Shown here piece by piece: positions 2,000-31,130 of a stretch of 64,000 nt of DNA. The notes below the pieces were generated by a model. That model had not been told where the DNA came from and made no database searches. It was given only the letters and a program-made list of their open reading frames with translations. The position numbers were made by a program, and so were the translations under genes. Numbering within the stretch: the first letter of the stretch is position 1; every line of letters begins with the position of its first letter. The DNA is from Telopea speciosissima (taxonomy: Eukaryota > Streptophyta > Magnoliopsida > Proteales > Proteaceae). The DNA is taken from positions 59,454,464-59,518,463 of the forward strand of contig NC_057917.1 of assembly GCF_018873765.1 (NCBI RefSeq), written 5' to 3'.

Positions 2000-4900
2000 T
2001 ATGGATTAGGTATTAACCCCATTCCCGTAGATGCACTACATAAGTTCTTGAGGACATAGGCTTTGTGAATATGTCGACTTGTTACTCGACTTCATATAAT
2101 CGATAGCTATTATTCCTTCATCTATGTCTTTGTCTCACAAGGTTGTGTCCGAGGCGTATGTGCCTCCTCTTCCCATGTATATCCGGTTCTTGGCTAGATG
2201 TATAGCCGCTTGGTTATCACAATGTAGTGATACCGATGGCGCGGTTTTGCCACAATGGAATACCCGCCATTAAATTTCTAAGTCATTAACTTCTGCCTTT
2301 TCCAAGGCTATGAACTCAGCTTCCATGGTAGAGCATGTCCCACAAGATTGCTTTGTGGACTTCCATGAGATTGCACCTTTGCTAGTGTAAACATATATCC
2401 ACTAGTAGCTAAGGACTCGTTTGTATCCAAAATCCAATTTGCATCACAATACCCTTCCAAAACATTGGTTTACCACTGTAGTGTAAACTATAGTTTATAG
2501 TGCCTTTTAGGTACCTTAATAACCTATCAACCGCGCTCCAATGTTCCTTATTTGGATTGTGAGTATGTTGACTCAACTTTCCTACCGCAAGGGCAATATC
2601 CGGACGCAGCGTACAATTCATTAAATATGTGACCGAACCAATAATTTGAGCATATCTTTTTTGATTCACTTTGGTTCATCTAGGTTCCTTTTCAAGTGAC
2701 ACCCCATATCAAAAGGTGTTTTAACCTTTGAAACTTCATGGTACCCATACTTTTTAAGTATGTTTTCGCATATCGGGCTTGGGATAATGAAATATGATTT
2801 CCTTGCTTGGTGATTTTGATCCCAAGGATCATATCAACCTCTCCTAAGTCTTTTGTGTCGAAACTAGACATCAAAAGTTTCTTAGTTTGATTAACCATTT
2901 TCAAGTTTGTTCCCATTATGAGCATATCATCTACATATAGTAGTATAAATACACCCCTACCACCATGAAACCTGCTATATAAGCATCTTTGTCGTCGTTT
3001 ACAATGAATCCATTTGAAATTAGAACCTTGTCCAATTTTTCATGCCATTGCTTGTGCTTGCTTCAATCCATATAAGGATTTCGAAGGTTGCAAACCTTTC
3101 GCTCTTGGCCAATTACAACACATCCTTCAGTTGCTTTATGTAAATTTCCTCCTCTAAGTCCCCATTAAGAAATGCCATTTTCACATCCATTTGATGGATG
3201 ACCAGGTTATATATTAGCGTCATTGCCAACATAACCCTTATCGTGGCAATTCTAGACACCGGGGCAAATGTGTCAAAGTAATTAATATTAGGCTTTTGCC
3301 TAAAACCTTTGACAACAAGTCCGGCCTTGAAAGCGATCAAGTGACCCATCACTTTTTAATTTCTTTTGAAATATCCACTTGGTTTCCAAAGTTTTGGATC
3401 CGAATGGTAAATCCACCAATTCCCAAGTGTTATTCGCCAAGATTGAATCTAGTTCACTATTGATTGCCTCTTTCCAAAAGACGACATCCAGTGATGTAAT
3501 AGCCTCTTTGTATGTAAGAGGATCCTTGTCTACTAAATAGACAAGCCACTCATCATCTGTATATTTGGATCTTTTGAGTCGCTTGCTCATCCTAGGCCGA
3601 CTTTCGTCATCATTACTCAATTCTTGATTGGTAACCCTTTCATTTGACTCCATTTCCCCATTAGTCAATTGACTATCCTTACTTATAGGTAATATGGACT
3701 TAAAGGAAAATAAATTTTCAAAAAGCTCAACGTCTCTTAATTCTATGATGCTATTTGGTTCAATAACATCATCCATGGCTTTGATCACTATGAACCGGTA
3801 TGCCGTACTATTTGTAGCATAACCCAAAAACACACAATCACATGTTTTTTGTCCCAATTTTCTTTTCTTGGAATCCGGTAACAATACCTTAGCCAAACAA
3901 CCCCAAACCCGTAGATGTTTTAGACTTGGTTTCCTACCAAACCATTTCTCAAATGGAACCATACCAGTCTTGCTATGTGGGATTCTATTTGATAGATAAC
4001 ATGCCGATAGCATGGCTTCCCCCCACATATCAAGTGGTACACCTGAACTCAATAACATAGAGTTCATCATCTCTTTAAGAGACCTATTTTTCCTTTCGGC
4101 AACCCCATTTGATTCCAATTGGTATGGAGTGGTTGTTTCATGGATAATTCCATTTTCCTCACAAAACTTATCAAGGTTAAAGTACTCAGCCCCTCTATCG
4201 GTTCTAAGTCTCTTAACCTTCTTACCAAGTTGATTTTCAACTTCCATTTTGTAAGATATGAACGCCTTTCTGCCTCATCCTTTGATTTGAGTAAATACAC
4301 CATGGTATATCTAGAGTGGTCATCTATGAAAGTTATGACATAGTTGTTTCCTCCCCTAGACTCATATGACTTGTAGTCACATAAGTCACTATGGATTAAT
4401 TCCAGAGATTACTCTTCCTATCCATAGTCTTGTGAGGTTTTTTGGTTAACTTTGCCTCTACATAAGTTATGCACTTGTTTCTTGGGATTCCACCTTATCG
4501 GTGATCATGCCTAACTTGCATAGTTTGGTGATATATTTCACACTACTATGACCCAACCTACCATGCCACAAATCAAAAAAGTTAGAAGAGACAATCATGT
4601 AAGCGGAAGAAGTACTAGTTTTCTCAATTACAATATTTCCAACACTTAGTACAAACAACCCCTCACTAAGGTATCCCTTCCCCACAAAACATTGTTTTTA
4701 GTGATAACCACCTTATCACTTTTAAAAGCTAATTTCATTCCTACTTTATTAAGCAAAGGAACTGAAATTAAATTGCGCCTAATATCCGGCACATGAAGAA
4801 CATTGGTGAGAACCATAGTCTTCCTTGAAGTGAGTTTCAAAGTCACTTTTCCTTTTCCCATAACAGAGCACTTTGGGAATTCCCCATAAATACCTTTTCA

Positions 4901-6986: not shown

Positions 6987-7558
6987 CATGTCATTATCAG
7001 TTCTTCCAGTGTGTTTTAATCCAATTCTACCTTTATTTCATATTAAGATATCAATCTCTAAAGTTGGTTGAAACTTCGAAGTGAAAACATTGAAGTGATA
7101 TTGGTTTTAAGATTGAAGATTAAAGGCTAAAACACAGGATTTTTCCTTCCAAGAAAAAACTATATTATGTTCAATGAGAAACAAAAAATAATATGATAAA
7201 TAGAAAGCAAAAAGAATAGTAGAAAAAAGCCCTTGGAGCATGATAAAGGGGACAAAAAAATTAAGAATAAGAAGCATGTGATAAAGTTAAAAGAACACTA
7301 TACTTCCAAGTTCCAAGGAGGTAGACTAGTTTTTCCCCCTTTTTCTTAGGAAACCAGAAAACAAAAACAAACATAAATAAAGGCTAAAAAGGCATTTACA
7401 TACAGAATAGGAAAACTTGGCCAAAAGAGCTAATAAAGACATGTCAAAGATTATTTATAGGAGAAAAAAGAAAGAAAACTCTTCAGAATGCTCCACCAAC
7501 AGTTTAATTCATCCACGGCCCCAGGACTGTGAACCAAATATTTAATATTATTGGCAAT
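6987..7558. other. Gene-poor stretch downstream of the F-box gene
   Basis: No gene is seen. From about 7230 the sequence resembles 13560-13780, so it forms the distal part of the segment duplicated together with the F-box gene. Confidence 0.55.
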
Positions 7559-8848
7559 CTAATCTGAAGGTGAAGAGGAACGGGGACGGGAAGCAAAGGA
7601 TAGGATCTTGTAGCTAGTATCTTTCTTTGACTTGCCACATGCAATAACAATAGGAGATAAAAGGCTTGGAACAAAACTTTTTGCTTGGAAAAAAACTGGA
7701 ATTGCTCCAGGCACCTGAACAGGCATCCATTGCTTCTTCTCTAAACAATATGCGAGAAGATGACTACAATTCTCTTTATCTTTGGAATAAGAATCCCTGC
7801 TGCCATTTACCTTGTACAAGAGCAATTGCTCGCTTAACATACCCACGAGATCGAAATTACGATATTCGTTAGGCCATGTTACAACCGCATTAATATGATC
7901 ATACTGGTACAACACATTGCCTTTGGACTTGTTAATCTCTATGAACCATATATGAATGAAAAATGATTCATAAATAGGATGACGATGATAATGCAAGGCC
8001 AAGTAACCCTTGATAACAGTTAGACCTAATTCATAAAAATTGGGTAATTTTATAGAAGGAGGGAACTCTATAGTGCAAAACTTCTCATCATGGAGATCGA
8101 AAAAAATGATGATCGATTGCTGCGAATTGGTGGTGGTGGTGGGATTATTGTTAATCCAATAGAGTGCCCCATTCATGAATACCATCTCGTTGACTGCAAA
8201 TTGGATAGAATTTGTCGGGTAAGGGTCTGTTATCTCTCTCCATGAACTGTCACCTAATGTGATAATCTCACCCTTCAACACAACATCATCATCATCGTCG
8301 TCGTCGTCGTCATCGTTGTCATCAACTCTATATATATTAATCACCTTGTAGTTGCCTGTGGAATCCACACCAAAACCAATTTGACTGCTACCGTTCCCAC
8401 CTCCTGGTGGCAACATCACACACTCTTTTGTGATTGGGTTGCATATAAATATTACAACAGTCTTCCTATAATCATAGGGTTTAGGAACCATGCAGAGTAA
8501 ACCATTGCAAGATCCAACAATTTGGAAATCATATCTATTTTCTTGCTTCCAATACTTCCATGTATATTCCGAAACAATTTCCCTCGCTTTCCACATATAT
8601 TTCCGTCTTAGATCTTTGTCCAACAAAATTACCTTATCTGCACACGGGTTTTCCCAAAGAATTAGGCGGTGTGGTAGATCCTTTGATATTTTAAGATGCA
8701 ATTCAAGGAATGATGGGTCTTCTTCTATCAAACTCAACCAACTCTTACACACGCTCTTGAATCGCATAAGAGACTCTATGGGGAGCCTTGATAATATGTT
8801 TGACACAATCTCACAAGGTACATACTTTTTATTATTAATTTCTTCCAT
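7559..8848 (-). CDS. F-box protein with FBA (F-box associated) domain
   Basis: An uninterrupted frame of 429 residues, intronless as is usual for this family. Such proteins are substrate receptors of SCF ubiquitin ligases: the F-box binds SKP1 and the FBA region binds the target, which is unknown here. Residues about 10-50 form the F-box (PCEIVSNILSRLP, then MRFKSVCKSWLSLI). Residues about 107-320 carry FBA hallmarks (VGSCNGLLCM, ICNPITKECVMLPP, GFGVDSTGNYKVI). Residues 166-178 are almost pure Asp, from a GAT/GAC repeat. The frame is open 27 codons further upstream, but that extension is mainly a GGAAA pentamer repeat (GKERKGKERK), so the ATG at 8848, which is followed by a normal F-box start, is preferred. 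The stop is TAG at 7559-7561. A truncated paralogue lies at 14041-15240. Expression cannot be judged; a recent pseudogene is possible but no lesion is visible. Confidence 0.85.
   Translation of the reverse strand: MEEINNKKYVPCEIVSNILSRLPIESLMRFKSVCKSWLSLIEEDPSFLELHLKISKDLPHRLILWENPCADKVILLDKDLRRKYMWKAREIVSEYTWKYWKQENRYDFQIVGSCNGLLCMVPKPYDYRKTVVIFICNPITKECVMLPPGGGNGSSQIGFGVDSTGNYKVINIYRVDDNDDDDDDDDDDVVLKGEIITLGDSSWREITDPYPTNSIQFAVNEMVFMNGALYWINNNPTTTTNSQQSIIIFFDLHDEKFCTIEFPPSIKLPNFYELGLTVIKGYLALHYHRHPIYESFFIHIWFIEINKSKGNVLYQYDHINAVVTWPNEYRNFDLVGMLSEQLLLYKVNGSRDSYSKDKENCSHLLAYCLEKKQWMPVQVPGAIPVFFQAKSFVPSLLSPIVIACGKSKKDTSYKILSFASRPRSSSPSD
8281..8324 (-). repeat. Trinucleotide run coding poly-Asp
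   Basis: Alternating CAT/ATC and CGT/GTC triplets within the F-box coding sequence give the Asp tract. Such tracts vary in length between alleles without breaking the frame. Confidence 0.85.
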
Positions 8849-8850
8849 AT

Positions 8851-8881
8851 CTTTCCTTTCCTTTCCTTTCCTTTCCTTTCC
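8851..8881 (-). repeat. (CTTTC)n pentanucleotide microsatellite
   Basis: Six perfect CTTTC units (GGAAA on the coding strand) end two bases before the chosen ATG of the F-box gene. Because the unit length is not a multiple of three, a change in copy number would shift any upstream frame. This supports placing it in the 5' untranslated region. Confidence 0.9.
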
Positions 8882-9140
8882 TAAAAAGAAATAAACGAAA
8901 TCAATAAAAACTAACATAATTATGCACAAAAAACAGTACTAACTATCACAGAAAAAAAAAAACAGCATCGATTGATCAATGCATTAGATCATAGATAATG
9001 AATGGTCAGTCAGTATGATCTTTTTAGCATTCAAGGTTGCTAGGTTTTTGTTACCCAAAAAAGAAAAACAAAAGGTTGCTAGGTTTTCGGTAGTATGTTA
9101 AAATTCTCATTTTACAGAGTCTCCATAATCTCTCCTACTA
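8882..9140. other. Presumed F-box promoter region
   Basis: AT-rich sequence upstream of the F-box gene. A short imperfect duplication (GGTTGCTAGGTTTT-like, near 9035 and 9073) is the only structure noted; no clear TATA box was assigned. Confidence 0.35.
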
Positions 9141-9371
9141 CTACTCCTCTTCCAGCTTTTTGGCTGAGGCTGCTAATTCCTGCTTCTTATCTTGGGCTAC
9201 CTTAAGTGCTCGAATTAGGTTTTCCAGGGAAGTCTTAGCATCTCCCTTGAAGGTCTTAGGCATCAAATTCTCTGCAACATCCGCAGGGTTCATCTGGGTT
9301 TCTTCCAGCAACCCACGAATCATGTCAAACAAAGGGTCTGAATCGAGGTCGAGGTGATTCGTTTCGAAGTA
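9141..9371 (-). pseudogene. C-terminal fragment of a BCS1-like AAA-ATPase
   Basis: The last 76 residues of this minus-strand frame resemble the C-terminal tail of plant AAA-ATPases of the BCS1-like (AATP1/ASD-type) group. The visible pattern is DPLFDMIRGLLEETQMNPAD, then VAENLMPK, a LENLIRAL helix and a Lys/Glu-rich end. In that family the segment follows the AAA module. Upstream of residue YFETN the frame runs into unrelated residues, and no Walker A or B motif is seen in the following kilobase on either strand, so the catalytic domain is missing. It is best read as a 5'-truncated relic. The end is TAG at 9141-9143. Identification is from recalled family pattern only. Confidence 0.55.
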
Positions 9372-9741
9372 TGTTATCTGGAAACTTGGTACAATCTGAT
9401 AGTGATATTTATATTTGGGAAATTTCTGATTTCTGTTTGTTCCCCTATCCGTTCTTTGGATTAATTTACTATGATCTTTGTTTATGATCTTCCCATTCCT
9501 TGTTAAAATAAAAATCACAAGTATGACCCAATCAGGTCTGATCTGAATCTGCATATGAGTTGAGTTTCATTGTATTCGTAATTTGTTCTTGCGGATTTGT
9601 TCCATTTCTACTCTGTTTTTCTTTCAATTTGGTGTTGATTTTTTTCATTATTGCTAAAAAGTCTCATAGATTTTTCTTTTAGATGTCTTTTAATCTGATT
9701 TAGATGTTTATTGTGTAAAGACCTGTAATTTTTCCCCTTTC

Positions 9742-9759: not shown

Positions 9760-12527
9760 GATTTGAAAAAGATGAGTTGCAGATTTTTTTTCTAGGTAAG
9801 GGCATTTTTATCATTTGACATAATCAAGGGTAGATTGGTCTAATCATGTTAAAAAAATGTCAGACGTTATGTTAGGACTAGAGTGATACATAGTTTGAAA
9901 ATAAAGAACAGGGATAGAACCACTGACCTTGTTTCGCATCCGTATGCACAAGATGATGAACACTAAATATCTCCCTCTATTTTCAGAATGAACTCCTCAT
10001 CAGAGATTGAGAATAATTATTTGTGATGGGTAGAGAGGGGACCTAGCTCTCTTTATATAGTAATTCGTAGAGGGTCTCTCTCATCATAGTCTTAGTAAAA
10101 ATCTATCTGCCCACTCCAAACCCAGTCCATATAGGAATCTTAAAACCACTAAATGACCCTCTTTATTAGACTACAATTAGAATTAGCTTGACTTAATTAA
10201 ATAAGGAGATTGTAATTTTAAAATCCTTACACGTTAGGAATTGATTGTAGGCACATGACATAAGAATCAAAGAGCAGATGAAACTCAATAAAAATGGCGG
10301 ATTTTATTCCTTTTTAATTATGAATTTTCTTTATAGTTATCTTTGAAGAGGATGATGATCTGTTAGTTGGAACTGTTGGTGAAGGAAGAAGAGGCGTTAG
10401 AGGCAAGCAGGAGTGAAATTAATTCCATAAATTAATTATAACTCAATTTTATAGCACATTTTCTGGACACGTGTAGTTAGCTCGTTCAGATAATACCGCA
10501 TAGAGAGAGAGAGCAGAGACGTGTTGTTAGGTTACTCACGAGAAGTCAAACAGATGGGGAAGGATTGGGTTAATAAAAGGGTTTTAAAACACGGAATCGG
10601 AGACGGAATTGATCATTGGCAATTCTGATCTGGATCGGATCAAAATCAGCTGAAATTAGTGATAAAAAACCTTAAAATTGGTCTTAAAATTCAAAAATAG
10701 GGAATTTCTAGGGTTTATGGGTGTAAATCGGTCATGTCGAATCAATAGAATTTGAGATCGATCATTGCCGATTCGCCAAGCTAATGGATCTATTATAGGA
10801 GACAACAATTAGATTAGCATTGTGTATTAGCGAGAGTAGGTGTCCACCAACTTCAAACCCTTCTTGCGCTCTCTGATATCCTGCAATTGTCACATACCCT
10901 CCTGGCCTGTCTCCTCATCCTCTTGGCTTCAAAACCTACAATACCAATGAACCGCTCCAGTATATATCATGAATTAATTACAAAATGGGACCGGCCTCCC
11001 TGGGTTCTAAGCAATAATAGTACCTTAAAAGATACAGATTGAAGCCAAGTTCAAGATCTACGGAACTCTTAATTTGCAGATTAAAGATTTTTCTGGAGGC
11101 ACAAACGATTATGCTTTGTGGTTCGTAATTAATGCCATTCATTGCAGGAATTAATTTAGAAGGTTAGGTTAAATCAGCCATTTTCAAGAGCCATCATCGC
11201 TCAATAGGGCAGGGCAGTTCATCTCACAACTTGCAGAGCACCGCCCCCATTGTTGCAGCTAATTATCAGAAAGAACGCTCCAGCGCCATCAAGATTCATC
11301 AGTGCTTGTTGCGTTTGTTTTTTAATAAGAACAAAAAAAACAAAGAGAGACGGTTGGGATCTTATTTTATTGATGAAGACTCATCAGTGCTGGTTTTTTC
11401 AATGGCGGAAGTTTGGAAAATCAAAGAGACAGAAGGAAGCCTATAATCAAACCGTATCACATGTATACGTATGACCTCGGTATACATGTCTGGGTCTCAC
11501 ACATAACTGCACCGGTCAAGGAACCGTAGACGATAATTGTCCATAACGTATTATACGTGTTTAATATAAGCCGCTTTATATCTTACCTCTCCTCCCCCCC
11601 CCTAAAAGTATTCTATGCAGCATCTTGCCCAGACTGCACGTGCAGTGCCAGACACAGTGAAACGTGAAAAAACCACCTCACCCCTGCATGTTGGAAAACA
11701 AATCAAATGTCACCAACATGGTGTCATGTTGTTTACATTGTTATGTCTTGTCATAGAACTATGTTGTAGTACAACCTACTAGATGACAATAATAGTTATT
11801 AATTTCACTTGAATTACCCCTTTTTTTTAAAGTAGAATACTTGAATTACCCTTTGTTGAAGTTTTGGATATGTCTTGCTCAACCTAGAGTTAATCTCTTG
11901 TTCATAAATATGGAAGCTGATTAAAGAGAATGCTCAGGCAGTTGAAAGAACTTAGTCGAAGGGTTTTTATTTTTTGGGTGTTGTCTATATAATCTGTTGA
12001 ATTATGTTTTAATTTAACCATTGTGAACATTTTAGGGTTTTCTGTAATTATGCAATAATGTGGGATGGTGTAGTACATGTCCTTTCCCAGACCCTAGAGT
12101 AGCGGGAGTCTCGTATCTCATGATGCATGACTTGGAATAATTTAACATATCTATGATGAAAGTCCGGTTTAACTGGTTGGATTGAGGTGTCTAATGCAAA
12201 TACATTGAGGCCTAAACTGAATGATGATATGGGTGGGTGGAGAGCTCTACTGCTACCTCATTCCACAACTGTTGTAACTTAAAAGGGACTCTGTGTGGCA
12301 ATTTCGGCTACATAAACAAGTCTTCCAATTAGTTTGGTGCATTCAACCCAAAAGGTTACAAGACCACTCATGGTTACTATGGCACGTTCGATACATTTCT
12401 CTTTTACTGGAAGAACAATGGAGAGTTTCATCTTGTTATTTTACCCAAAGTACATATGAGGCAGTGCTGATGCACTTTTTGGCTATGCCAGGGGATTGAG
12501 AACTTCAATTTGAATTTGGGGCAGATG
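9760..12527. other. Long gene-less stretch
   Basis: No convincing gene. At 9830-9895 a short segment (GAGTGATACATAGTTTGAAAA) resembles 54540-54565, which hints at a dispersed repeat. 10580-10790 is one of several stretches rich in ATCGGATC/GATCGAT words. Two short overlapping frames near 11231-11474 have no recognisable domain. 12290-12500 contains a short frame with no family match I can name; it may be the edge of an exon interrupted by the element at 12533. Confidence 0.4.
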
Positions 12528-12532
12528 GTCTC

Positions 12533-12627
12533 TGATAAGGATTAGCCATGTGTAATAACTATATTTGTGTTACTCGGTTATCCCTTCTCTCTAATATGTA
12601 TATATATGTGGTTAAACTCAATTAATA
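12533..12627 (+). repeat. Partial LTR copy (left, inverted)
   Basis: About 95 bases match the complement of 13144-13016. The match stops after AATTAATA at 12627, where the sequence switches to gag-derived DNA. It lacks the last 23 or so bases of the LTR. Confidence 0.8.
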
Positions 12628-12634
12628 GGCCAGA

Positions 12635-12960
12635 GATCGAGAATCCATAAGAGGATTCAGCCGTCGGACGAGGGTAACTTCCGTCAACAAAGCCAAGGAG
12701 ATCATAGCCTTTGAGAAGGGGCACAAATTTGTAGAAGATAACTTCAGAGGAAGATGCGGAGAGGCATTGAGAGTTACTAGAGAGGAAACATCACAGGCGG
12801 AGTTCGCCATGAAAGGAGGAGATGCCGCCACGAAAGAGCAGGAAATCAAGAAACAAGAATCTGAGAGAAGAAACAAGAAAGGCGGAAGAAAAGAGAACCA
12901 ACAAGTGCGAAACCCAAAGAAAAAGAACCAAGAAACAAAATAGACTCGTCAGAGCACTGA
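12635..12960 (-). pseudogene. copia gag N-terminal fragment
   Basis: On the minus strand, after a primer-binding-like site (TGGTATCGG, complement of 12969-12977) and a short leader, an ATG at 12816 opens MANSACDVSSLVTLNASPHL, then PLKLSSTN. This is the conserved start of copia gag (LxLNxSxxLPLKLxxTN). The frame then shifts and continues in another frame as PLLKGYDLLGFVDGSYPRPT, the next conserved gag block. About 20 bases at the junction are lost. The rest of gag and all of pol are absent. Confidence 0.7.
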
Positions 12961-12977
12961 AGGAAAGACCGATACCA

Positions 12978-13016
12978 TGTTATGAAATGAATCACACTTT
13001 ATTAATTGAGTTTAAC

Positions 13017-13087
<71 letters not shown>

Positions 13088-13144
13088 GGGAGGGAATAAC
13101 TGAGTAACACAAATACAGTTATTACACGTGGCTAATCCTTATCA
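12978..13144 (-). repeat. Complete short LTR (right)
   Basis: On the minus strand it starts TGATAAGG and ends CATAACA, directly followed by the primer-binding-like TGGTATCGG. At 167 bases it is very short, and about 63 of these are an expanded TA microsatellite. Confidence 0.78.
13020..13083. repeat. (TA)n microsatellite
   Basis: An uninterrupted TA run inside the right LTR. The left LTR has only about 10 bases of imperfect TA at the same place, so the expansion followed the formation of the element. Confidence 0.95.
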
Positions 13145-13149
13145 GTTTC

Positions 13150-13559
13150 CTTATCGGGCCACTGCTGCTTGCAACTGTTATGACCGGATTTGTAGGGCCA
13201 CATATGAGCTTGGGCATTGTGACCTTAAAAAGGCAGGACAAGTCAAGGTAATAACTGTTTGGGGATGACTCGAACTATGGCATCTTTTGTACGTGGCCCT
13301 CAAGTTGATAGCTTAATTATATAGTTGTCATTCTGCGCATCTTACAACTATATATATTTACCCAATTGCTTTATAAAATCAACCTTTTTCATCAATCTCT
13401 TATCTCTCCAAACAAGCTATTAATTTTATCCAAAAAAAAAAACAAGCTATTAATAAAGAATTATCACAAGCTATTAATAAATAAAAAAAAAAGAAGAAAT
13501 GAAAAAGGGAAACAGCACAAACACTTGACAGATTAGTAAGTGACAAAACTTCATGGTTT
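13150..13559. other. Stretch without assigned gene
   Basis: A short frame at 13150-13270 (containing ICRATYELGHCDL) ends near a possible splice donor, AAG|GTAATA. I cannot name a family. The rest is A-rich. Confidence 0.3.
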
Positions 13560-14040
13560 TTGAACATGATAAAGGGGAAAATTAAGAATAAGATGCACGT
13601 AATAGAGTTCAAAGAACTAACATAATATATTCCGTCACATTTGCTTCATGAAACACATGATACTTCCAAGTACCAAAGAGGTAGACAAGTGTTAAAAGAA
13701 AGTTGGCCAAAAGAGCTATAGACATGTTAAAAGATTAACTGTAAGAGAAAAGAAAGAAAGTCATCAGAATTCTCCACCATCAACGCATTGTTACTATGGA
13801 TGAACCACCAAAGAAATCTTGATTGTACAAATTCCAAGTCAAAGAAAACTCTTCCAACACTTGGTTTCGATAGCTAGCAAAGCAACCGGAGCACAATGAA
13901 ATTTTTGAGAAGAAATAGGCACAACTTACAATAGGAAATGGAGGAGACAATCACTTAATTAGTACTACCAGTAATTTGCATCCTCCACAGCTCCCAAAAG
14001 GACACTCTGAACCAAACATCTTACATTGTCGGCGCAATCT
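13560..14040 (-). repeat. Duplicated 3' flank of the F-box gene
   Basis: Shares several blocks with 7230-7500, among them GATACTTCCAAGT and TTGGCCAAAAGAGCTA, in the same order and orientation. It shows that the F-box gene was duplicated together with at least 300 bases downstream. Confidence 0.7.
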
Positions 14041-15240
14041 AATCTGAAGGTGGAGAGCAGCGGGGACGAGCAGAGAAGAATAGGATCCTGTAGCTACTAG
14101 CTAGTATCTTTCTTTGACTTGTCACAGGCAATAACAATAAGAGGAGACACAAGGATTGGACAAAAACTTTTTTTTGCTTGGGAAGTGAATTGGAATTTTT
14201 GCAGACACCTGAGCACGCATCAATTCATTCTTCTCTAATCAATAGACCAGAAGATGACTACGATTCGAGCTGAGTTAATCCTGGAGTCAGTTAGGATGTA
14301 CAAGAGCATGTGATTGCTTAGCATACCCACGAGTTTAAATTTATAATTTTTATCAGGCCATGTGAACATATCGGTACAACTCGATGATGCATGCCCTTAG
14401 ATTTGTTAATCTCTATGAACCATAAATATACGAATGACAAATGATTGAAAATCATGTTGATGCATGGCCAGGTAACCATTGATAACAACAGTTAGGCTCA
14501 ATTTATGAATATAATCGGGCAACTCTATAGAAGGAGGGAACTCGATCTATAGTGCAAAACTTGTCATCATCGAGATTGAACACACTGATGATTGGCTGCT
14601 GCTGCTGCTGCTGCTGGTTCGAAGAGGTGGTGGTGGGGTTGTCGATAATCCAATAGAGTGCCCCCATTCATGAATATCATCTCGCTGTCTGCAACTCGGA
14701 TAGAATGTGCGGGGTAAGCGATTGGCATCACTCTCCATGAACTTTCATCACCTAATGTAATAATCTCACCCTCCCACCACATCATAATCATCCCATTCAT
14801 CATCAGAGTAATCTATTTCTAGCTAGATACATTATAATCACCTTGTACTTTTCTGTGGAATCCATACCAAGACCAATTCTACCATAGTCATAGATCCCAC
14901 CTCTTATAGGTGGCAACATCACACTCTTTTGTGACTGGGTTGCAAATACATATGCGTTGATCTGTATATTCGTCTTTAGTAACCATGCAGAGCAAACCAT
15001 GGCAAGACCCAACAATGTCGAATTCCAATTCTAAATTCATTTCTCGCTGCCTATACTTCCAGGTATACTTTTCCTCCGACATCATTTCCCTTGCTTTCCA
15101 CATATATTTTCATCTTTTATCTCTGTAGTAGTCGTCCAACAAAATTAACTTATTTGCATGAAAAGGTTCCCAAAGAATTAGGCGATGTGGTCGATGCTTT
15201 CATCTTTCAAGCCGCAATGCAACGAATGATGTGTCTCTTT
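14041..15240 (-). pseudogene. Truncated F-box/FBA paralogue lacking the F-box
   Basis: Collinear with 7561-8725 of the intact F-box gene, but with many indels and stops that break it into short frames. Recognisable blocks are SCHGLLCMV (near 15000), CNPVTKEC (near 14935), IGLGMDSTEKYKVI (near 14850) and GEIITLGD (near 14760). Homology ends near 15240, the point matching codon 41 or so of the intact gene, so the SKP1-binding F-box was never copied or has been deleted. A CAG/CTG run (14596-14616) has expanded where the intact gene has only two Gln codons. The poly-Asp tract is reduced to a short ATC/TCA-rich run. It is clearly non-coding now. Confidence 0.83.
14596..14616 (-). repeat. (CTG)7 microsatellite
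   Basis: Perfect CTG/CAG run within the F-box pseudogene. It lies at the position of a two-Gln stretch in the intact paralogue. Confidence 0.85.
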
Positions 15241-15753
15241 CCATTTGATACAGTTTAGTCTGAATTAATCTTAGCCTGAAATTGAACCTAGAAATTAAGG
15301 AAAGGGGGGGAAAGATCAATTCAATTGGTGCCCAACAAATCCAAAGATGAGAAAATATATAATCAAATAAAAATAAATAAATTAAAATCTTCTTCTAAAA
15401 TTCAAAGAGGATTTTATGAGATGAAGAAACACTGTCTTGGGGTTGATGAGATGAAGGGATGAATTGAGAGAGAGAGAGAGAGAGAGGCACTTACCTAACA
15501 CCTATGCAATTCGCGATTCATACTATGCCCAACAACGAATCTGCCGATTGGAACTGGTTAATAAAACTCCATCTCTTTGCAAGATATAGGGTTTAAGCAT
15601 TAAAAAATTCCTATTTTACCCTCTTGATCCTATTGTACGAGCAATTATAGCCGCCAGGATTGAGAATGGAGATTAGGTCGGTGGAGTTTTATCCTTTTAT
15701 GTCAATATTATGTACGGAAATTTCTATTTTGCCCTCTTATTGCAATTGAGCCA
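15241..15753. other. Stretch without gene
   Basis: AT-rich with a GA run at 15468-15486. No coding or RNA signal is seen. Confidence 0.5.
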
Positions 15754-27945: not shown

Positions 27946-30900
27946 TCAGAAGATGACCTTTGGAATGTGGGATATCTTGTGCCAGTCTTCTCCTCCTTCT
28001 TTACATCGTCTCTTTAAGACAGGGCAACCATTTATAGAAAGAGTTTGCAAGGCTGTAGTGTGTTTTAAGCTCTCTGGCAAAGACATCAACTGAGGTAGAT
28101 GGCCAATATGTAGTTCTTGAAGGGAAGTGAGGTGCCAGAAATCCTCCAATTGGAAGAGTTCTAACTCTGGACAATCATCAATCCACAAATCCTCGAGAGC
28201 TGTTAAATATCTCATCCCTGATAGAGATGATAGTCCATGACAAGAGTTAATTCTCAATGCCTTTAAAGAGCTCAACACCTGGAATTGGGTCTCATCCTCC
28301 CACAAACATTTCATAGCATAACACCTTTCAACCCAAAAGTCTTTAAGAGAGCTAAAGCCTAATTCCCCAGGCCTAATAGACAAACTTGGCAATGTGATGA
28401 GGTTGTAGCAGACAGAAAATTCAATTGATCTTGAAGAGCGGAGAGGTTCTGAATTTGTAGCAGTCCATCTGGAATGTTTTCATTTTGCGTTTTTAGTTCT
28501 AAACGCTGAAGAGACGGGAGCAATGGGAGAGTTGTCAACTTGTCACAATTCTTAATCTTCATTGACACAAGGCAACGGAGTACTTCTCTTCCTTCTGCAA
28601 CATTCAACAACAATTCTTCCAGATTTAGCATTTCTTCTAAAACTATGTCTTCCAGCAATGTGAATCCTCCTTTACCCAAGTCATCAACACCACCACTGTA
28701 GAACTCAACAGTACCCAAGTGTCGTACAGAATCTATTCTACTTAATTCAAGGAATTTAAGAAGTGGCAGATGCCCAAGAGGCGGGAGATGTTTACATCTC
28801 TGACAGTCTTTGAGTACGACACGAACCAAATTTTGGAGCGACAAATCCTCCATCCAACCAGGAAACTTCATGCCCTGGTAGTTTTCTATTTCCAATCTTT
28901 TTATGGTTGCTGGGGGCTGGAGGCCTTCTAGCACCTCTTCAGAAGATGCATTTTCTTGGATTATGGGAGTCTGGTCATCAATATATCGAGACCAAGACAG
29001 GGTTAAAGAGTCAAGGTTTCTCTTTCTTATCAAATTGGCTTCTTCAGCATCCATTGAATTCTTCATGTTCTCAAGACCTTTTATGTGTAGTGGTCCTCTA
29101 AGGTTGTTCAGTCCTTGTAACTCACTGATACCACATCCACCCTTCTTCCCCATAATGAACATGCTTAATGTCTGGAGGTGAATCAGCCGCCCTATCCCTA
29201 TTGGAATATGACTTAGTGAGTGACATTCACGAATATCCAGGTGCCTAAGGTTCCTCATGGTACTCATGTTTGCAGGCAACTTTTGAGGATATATACATCT
29301 GAACAGTATCAATATCTGCAAATTTTTTAGGTTGCTCAAGGATTCAGGTAATTTCGACATCAATCTTGGCCCAGAGAGGTTCAGGTACCTCAAGTGTATC
29401 AAATAGGCTACTGAAGATAGCCTATATCCATTATTTGATCTTGACTGACTCAAAGTTGAATTCTGCTGGCAGGGGGCCAACTAGGAGCAGGGTACGTAAG
29501 GTTTCAGATTTACGTAAGAATTCATTAATATTAGATGGAAATTCATACAAAGACAAGTGTCCAATCCTTGTCTTGTTAAGGCCAAACATTCATTATCCAT
29601 AACAGAACATGCAAGATCATGGACTAGATCATGCATCTTACAATACACTGCATTGCCATCACCATCTTCTTTTACATCTTGGAAGAAAGACCTTTGCAGT
29701 AACTCATTGAAAATTTTATTCCCCATGTCTTCCAACTCCATTTTACGCTTTTAACTTTTAGATGGAAAAAAACCATTAGCCATCCAGAGATGGACTAACT
29801 TTTCCTTCTTCATCCGATAATCCTTTGGGATTATGGAGCAATAAGCGAAACATTGCTTCAGATATGAAGGCAGATGATTGTAGCTCAATCTCAAGGCCGG
29901 CAAAATGGTATTTTCTTCATCTTCTGGAAGATCCCAAATTTCACTGTCTCTCACGAACAACCATTCAGTCTCTGTATGTTTGAAACGCATAAGCTTCCTA
30001 GAGCCTTTGCAGCCAGAGGTACACCTCTACACTTCTTCACAATCTCCTTACCTGTCACTTCCAAGTTTGAATTCTCACCTCTGCCATTGTCAAATGCGCG
30101 TTGCTTGAACAAAGCTCAACAATCGTCCTCTCAGAGTATTTTCAAATGGTGGCCAGGAAATGGGCCCATGAACGACGCTACTTTTTCAATACGAGTGGTT
30201 ACAAGAATTGAACATCCTTGAATTCCACATGTTAATGAAGACTTCAACATATCCCACTTGTTCTGATCTTCATTCCAAACATCATCTAGGACAAGCAAAA
30301 ACATCCTCCTACTCAACATCTCACGAAGCCGCCTTTGCATTGGATCCAAGTCCGAGAGATCACATGCAGTTCCACTCAGATTCTATGATTGCTTTGGTAA
30401 GCCTTTTCACATCGAAATCATCAGATACACAAACCCAAATTCTGGTTTAAATGATTTTTCACTCTTTCATCGTTGTAGACTAGTTGTGCAAGTGTGGTCT
30501 TCCCAAGACCACCTAATCCAATTATTATTATTGGATAAACCAGTAAATTTGGGTTGCTATTGTTGTCCAGCAATAGTTTAATTATCTCTTCTATGTCCTC
30601 TTCTCTGTCATAAATTGGGTGTTCAGTAGTCAGAATGGAGCTAGTCTCTCGTTCAGTACTGCTCTCATCAACAGTCCATTCCGCAGTTCCCCGCGGGTTC
30701 AAATGAAAATCGGACCTCTCTTAGCAATATCATCAAATCTCCCTCTAATATCTTTAATTCTCTGTCCAATCTTGCGACGAAACTTAAGTTGTTCATAATT
30801 AAACCAAGATAAGAAAGAGTGGCTTACCTGGTTGGTACAGTTGCCGCAGTTTCTCATCCGGTCTTCTTCTAATTGAAGTGCTTTGGCCTCACACTCATCT

Positions 30901-31130
30901 AAGATATCCTCTGCATCATAAGCCGCCTCCTTGAGTTTCTTTAACCAACCTCTGATCGTCTCTTCTTTGAATTGATTCTCGTCAGCATTCTTCAATACAT
31001 TTCGAATTGTGGCTAAGGCGCTAGAAAGCCTTTCCATCTCTCGATCGACTCCCCATATCAAAGCAAACTCCCCCTGAAGTAGGGAATTGATGCTCTCAAG
31101 AACAACTTTAAGAATAGCTGCATCAACCAT
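27946..31130 (-). pseudogene. CC-NBS-LRR disease-resistance gene, RGA type, multiply disabled
   Basis: A single-exon NLR layout. The ATG at 31130 opens an Rx-type coiled coil (to about 30750). The NB-ARC follows, with P-loop GLGGLGKTT (near 30505), kinase-2 LLVLDDVW whose final Trp marks the CC class (near 30285), RNBS-B ILVTTR (near 30205), [10 protein letters not shown] (near 30010), [12 protein letters not shown] (near 29840) and [10 protein letters not shown] (near 29620). Leucine-rich repeats run from about 29480 to the TAA at 27946. Such proteins act as intracellular pathogen sensors. Breaks are frameshifts near 30706, 30450, 30370, 29995, 29590, 29480 and 28390, and in-frame stops at 30131 and 29751. 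A full-length product is therefore impossible. The LRR part (29480-28359) keeps a 373-residue open frame, but no start context or domain suggests that it works alone. Confidence 0.92.

Follow-up and report, generated by a model that had tools for sequence, protein, structure and literature searches.

A 612-bp retroelement fragment in the genome of Telopea speciosissima very probably originates from one integration of a single aberrant cDNA, which carried the U3 terminus of its long terminal repeat (LTR) at both ends. The fragment was analysed within a stretch of 64,000 nucleotides of contig NC_057917.1 (hereafter the window). Its structure, taken together with an empty paralogous site elsewhere in the same genome, supports a single insertion with a 5-bp target duplication.

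Anatomy of the unit and its copia relatives

The unit occupies window positions 12533-13144, has TG...CA edges and is enclosed by the 5-mers GTCTC (12528-12532) and GTTTC (13145-13149). Read on the minus strand, which is the sense of the element, it comprises a full LTR (13144 to 12978), a primer-binding-site-like TGGTATCGG with the leader and the start of gag (12977 to 12628), and an inverted LTR piece (12627 to 12533; Table 1). Both outer edges are formed by the identical LTR end, the U3 tip TGATAAGG, which starts 15 of the 21 LTR pieces tabulated across the family. The preliminary description had recognised inverted LTRs around a gag start, and this map bears it out together with the complementarity of the two arms: positions 12532-12607 pair with 13070-13145 (76 nt, 91%) and positions 12594-12627 with 13000-13033 (34 nt, 97%); the two overlap in the AT part. 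The AT run of the right arm extends over 64 nt without interruption, the left arm has a short run only, and the long run presumably expanded after the arms had been made.

Coding capacity for pol is absent from the unit, which retains just 350 nt covering the primer site, the leader and the start of gag, and its gag part shows a gap relative to the relatives. A Pfam scan of the 42-aa gag piece of the window alone matched no family; the gag identity of the inner part is one of homology, as copia gag and RVT_2 domains are present in relatives that share this leader/gag region. The primer site is what we take it to be from general knowledge of such elements and from the placement of TGGTATCA behind the 5' LTRs of the relatives.

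Table 1. Features of the inserted unit and its host flanks (window coordinates; L030 is the empty paralogous locus).
Feature	Position	Strand	Remarks
Left host flank, decayed TLDc-domain gene copy	12192-12527	+	12192-12532 matches L030 2975-3328 at 72%
Target-site duplication, left copy GTCTC	12528-12532		
Left arm, sense LTR from U3 tip TGATAAGG to 22 nt short of U5 end	12533-12627	+	
Aberrant junction, LTR interior/gag interior	12627-12628		possible overlap 1-3 nt
Antisense copia gag start, leader and primer-binding-site-like TGGTATCGG	12628-12977	-	350 nt
Right arm, whole antisense LTR, U3 tip facing outward	12978-13144	-	167 nt
AT dinucleotide run, long only in right arm	13020-13083		
Target-site duplication, right copy GTTTC	13145-13149		
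Right host flank, same TLDc gene copy going on	13150-13249	+	13148-13249 matches L030 3327-3422 at 75%

A whole-genome search returned at least 64 matches from at least 23 candidates, and 17 regions of the family were taken for the mapping of LTR and inner pieces. The elements in loci L010, L016, L018 and L019 are about 4.5-4.7 kb long and have direct LTRs (107-119 bp), TGGTATCA behind the 5' LTR and a purine-rich AGGGAGGG ahead of the 3' LTR. The ORFs of L018 match Retrotran_gag_2, gag_pre-integrs, SH3_retrovirus and RVT_2 above the Pfam cut-off, and Retrotran_gag_3 and rve (integrase core) below it, which gives the family the gag and pol of a copia-type element. The unit shares with these four Ty1/copia relatives the LTR sequence, the TG...CA edges, the primer site behind the LTR, the gag start and the 5-bp duplication; in contrast to their direct LTRs, purine-rich tract and length, it has inverted LTRs and only the gag start is left. 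Because its LTRs are inverted, the unit is a copia derivative and not a standard member of the family. As two LTR pieces plus gag it is not a solo LTR either; solo LTRs were found at L013, L014, L015, L020 and L021.

Among nine family insertions compared, six have 5/5 duplications and three have 4/5, a count from which L009 was excluded (its other end is lost) and in which L013-L015, with nearly alike flanks, may be one event. At these three loci the solo LTRs (L013 3766-3881, L014 4453-4568, L015 4405-4518) lie between 8-nt flanks that are almost identical, with TAGAT as the duplication (4/5 in L013), and probably represent one insertion that was multiplied within a larger repeat.

Target site and age of the insertion

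The 5-mers flanking the unit match at 4/5 positions. Random 5-mer pairs from the window match at 4/5 or better in 2.1% of cases, so that the duplication taken alone is weak and is secured by the empty paralogous site. This site was found through the left flank, which matches the genome at one further place (C6:53298474-53298826, L030), with 72% identity over positions 293-632 of the 632-nt query and reaching its last base. Locus L030 contains an ORF (3005-3541) with a TLDc domain (Pfam, E 7.3e-12); the TLDc copy of the window has stops in all three frames. L030 runs through the insertion point, reading GGGGCAGATG-GGCTC-CTTATAGG where the window reads GGGGCAGATG-GTCTC-[insert]-GTTTC-CTTATCGG, and the window minus the insert and one 5-mer aligns to it gap-free at the site, with no host base lost. 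The flank alignments scored 315 (left) and 137.5 (right), compared with shuffle maxima of 59 and 63.5 (500 shuffles each). Since L030 is empty, has one 5-mer and lacks nothing, it points to one insertion and not to two followed by a deletion.

The single 5-base duplication around the unit, as originally claimed, is upheld by the 4/5 match and by the one 5-mer of the C6 paralog. The accompanying expectation that an empty site in a relative should carry one GTCTC came true in part: a site with one 5-mer and without any loss exists, but it belongs to a 72% paralog inside the genome and is neither allelic nor orthologous. The 5-mer there is GGCTC, one base off GTCTC and two off GTTTC.

A comparison within the window, also made in search of an empty site, yielded only the tandem duplication of an F-box gene (7526-8728 and 14004-15244, about 73% identical; Pfam F-box for 7559-8929 only), whose patchy homology starts at 7233 / 13559, roughly 400 bp beyond the right end of the insert. 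Other features of the window are a further copia-like piece at 3300-4247 on the minus strand (SH3-like retroviral domain above the cut-off, integrase core and RVT_2 below), a minus-strand ORF at 9141-9554 with an AAA+ ATPase lid domain (At3g28540-like), and pieces of a plant NLR-type resistance gene at 27946-31130 on the minus strand, with LRR domains by Pfam at 28359-29480 and the remaining ORFs assigned by eye only.

Outside the AT run the two arms differ at 6/80 sites, every one of them a transition, which is as expected if ordinary decay after insertion produced them. At an assumed substitution rate of 1.3e-8 per site per year the arm divergence would correspond to an age of about 3 Myr (binomial range 1.1-6.0 Myr). 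At two alignment columns the arms share a state that the closest LTR group lacks, column 41 (0/7 others) and column 78 (0/6); against all 20 other LTR pieces only column 78 stays private to the arms, with six pieces having a letter there. In a tree of short LTRs both arms form one clade with the close group (support 0.98), and the right arm groups weakly with other close LTRs and not with the left arm (0.46). The arms are close, and we infer from their comparison that one common source may have supplied both.

Inner junction, proposed origin and rival explanations

The break at 12627/12628 is sharp: a further 22 nt of LTR would be expected, and antisense gag starts instead. At least one and at most three letters are shared at the switch, depending on the parent sequence. 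Neither partner supplies an LTR terminus, as the LTR site lies 22 nt inside the U5 end and gag is cut internally. In the aligned relatives that reach the switch point gag runs on; L022 is the exception, its gag giving way to other sequence close to that point. No copy of the inner junction elsewhere was found among the matches of the whole-genome search, where only the window's own match crosses it; two further matches start at query 100 and 98 and so overrun the junction by 1 and 3 bases, no further than chance would extend an alignment. A search with the inner part (query ending at the junction) gave at least 7 matches from at least 7 candidates, that is the window and six loci; in the maps and the alignment an inverted LTR piece is seen there at none of these six. 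The best other match among these reaches 77% (the L009 element), and because there is no close donor among the matches found, a base-by-base comparison of parent and product is precluded.

The preliminary description also considered a self-propagating palindromic family. This we rejected, no second junction having appeared among the scored candidates (their numbers being lower bounds), of which only the window copy crosses it. A transcript from either LTR would end without a second R region at the 3' end, which is needed for strand transfer, and so the unit would hardly be able to propagate.

In the origin that we propose, a copia-type LTR retrotransposon would have made an aberrant cDNA starting from the U3 tip of one LTR and passing through the 350 nt that comprise the primer site, the leader and the start of gag. 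Synthesis would then have switched to the opposite strand within the U5 part of an LTR and run back to the U3 tip: the reverse transcriptase would have left the minus strand in gag for a plus-strand LTR template whose 5' end is the exact U3 edge. As a second choice for the joining step, two broken cDNA ends may have been joined, with the same anatomy as the outcome. The overlap of 1-3 nt does not tell strand switch and end joining apart; given a single aberrant cDNA, we regard the strand switch as somewhat the likelier of the two. The integrase of the element would finally have inserted the U3-to-U3 product once into the decayed TLDc gene copy, generating a duplication of 5 bp. That the joining preceded integration, and that the integrase accepted two U3 ends, would both follow from this reading.

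The preliminary description had named self-integration as the source of the rearranged cDNA. Only one half of that proposal stands: the empty C6 paralog speaks for a single insertion of an already rearranged cDNA, but self-integration itself, in which the LTR end of a cDNA attacks the cDNA, an inverted LTR part becomes joined to gag and the product is integrated, would place an LTR terminus at the junction. Such a fate of retroelement cDNA is known, and the parts of PMC4751563, PMC2644782 and PMC9694575 that deal with autointegration describe LTR ends attacking the cDNA to give inverted or truncated circles. An inverted LTR joined to an internal part is common to these products and to the unit, and at L009, in the same family, an LTR terminus does sit at a head-to-head junction. 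The products described in those parts are circular and result from LTR-end attack, however, whereas the unit is linear and has a U3 tip facing outward at either end, its left arm lacks 22 nt of U5 and its gag is cut internally. With no LTR terminus at its inner junction we rejected self-integration, which we consider very unlikely. Had two sibling elements landed separately and facing opposite ways, with everything between the U5 part of one and the gag of the other deleted afterwards, this would be in line with the resemblance of either half to an ordinary family piece, with the chance level of the 5-mer match taken alone and with the LTR tree, in which the arms are not sisters. The empty paralog with one 5-mer and no target loss would then require both insertions to have struck the identical spot, in a genome where few family loci were found in 823 Mb (lower bounds); this scenario was rejected on the empty site and is highly improbable.

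Equally far-fetched is a normal insertion that was later reshaped in the chromosome by inversion, fold-back synthesis or conversion. Inverted repeats and AT runs are capable of triggering chromosomal template switching, but a normal element would have a U5 tip at one side, and the event would have had to halt exactly at the U3 tip and retain the 5-bp duplication. The window flanks show 33% identity as a palindrome over 60 nt, i.e. they are not palindromic, and therefore a chromosomal fold-back did not create the inversion and was rejected. An assembly or library fold-back artefact has to be considered, as inverted repeats pose difficulties for assembly when they adjoin a 64-nt AT run. It would yield identical arms continuing into the flank, and the observed differences between the arms led us to reject this explanation, whose probability is close to nil.

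A second head-to-head junction lies in L009 (1045-1232; C4:65417444-65417631), the one region among the 17 mapped that, like the window, has LTR pieces in opposite orientation. Here the CA end of a 3' LTR meets, with a 2-nt CA overlap, a U3 tip in inverted orientation, 58-60 nt long; this tip is 96% identical to the element's own LTR over 56 positions, and the run TTCTCTCTCT is common to both. The gag side ends in other sequence, the other end of the copy is lost, and 24 kb of sequence around the element did not contain the missing part of the LTR. L009 may be another U3-to-U3 product, or it may be an insertion into a sibling LTR, for which the LTR terminus at its junction speaks.

Relation to other inverted retroelements and significance

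DIRS-like elements are not known to make a target duplication, and the unit has one of 5 bp. Like the unit, 5'-inverted LINE-1 insertions contain an inverted copy inside one target duplication that arises at reverse transcription, but by twin priming in target-primed synthesis and not in free LTR cDNA. The part of PMC5633606 that treats DIRS-1 describes inverted LTRs, a likeness to the unit. These retroelements nevertheless use a tyrosine recombinase and circular intermediates, the unit being a copia piece; the Pfam matches of the L018 ORFs include no such recombinase. The 5'-inverted class of LINE-1 insertions is named in PMC2912911. Among the open-licence literature matches listed, none reports an LTR element integrated with U3 at both ends, which is no proof of absence.

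For the host the unit is a single old insertion in a dead gene copy, and it looks like a one-off copying accident. That this copia family repeatedly makes linear U3-to-U3 cDNAs which its integrase inserts, as an overlooked class of LTR insertions, seems rather doubtful to us, although L009 hints at a possible recurrence. Tools seeking direct LTRs would miss such insertions, whose frequency could be counted. If our reading of a single aberrant cDNA is true, the unit would be a natural case of integration accepting two identical U3 ends, and not one U3 and one U5 end, and an aberrant cDNA joining other than self-integration would have found its way into a chromosome.
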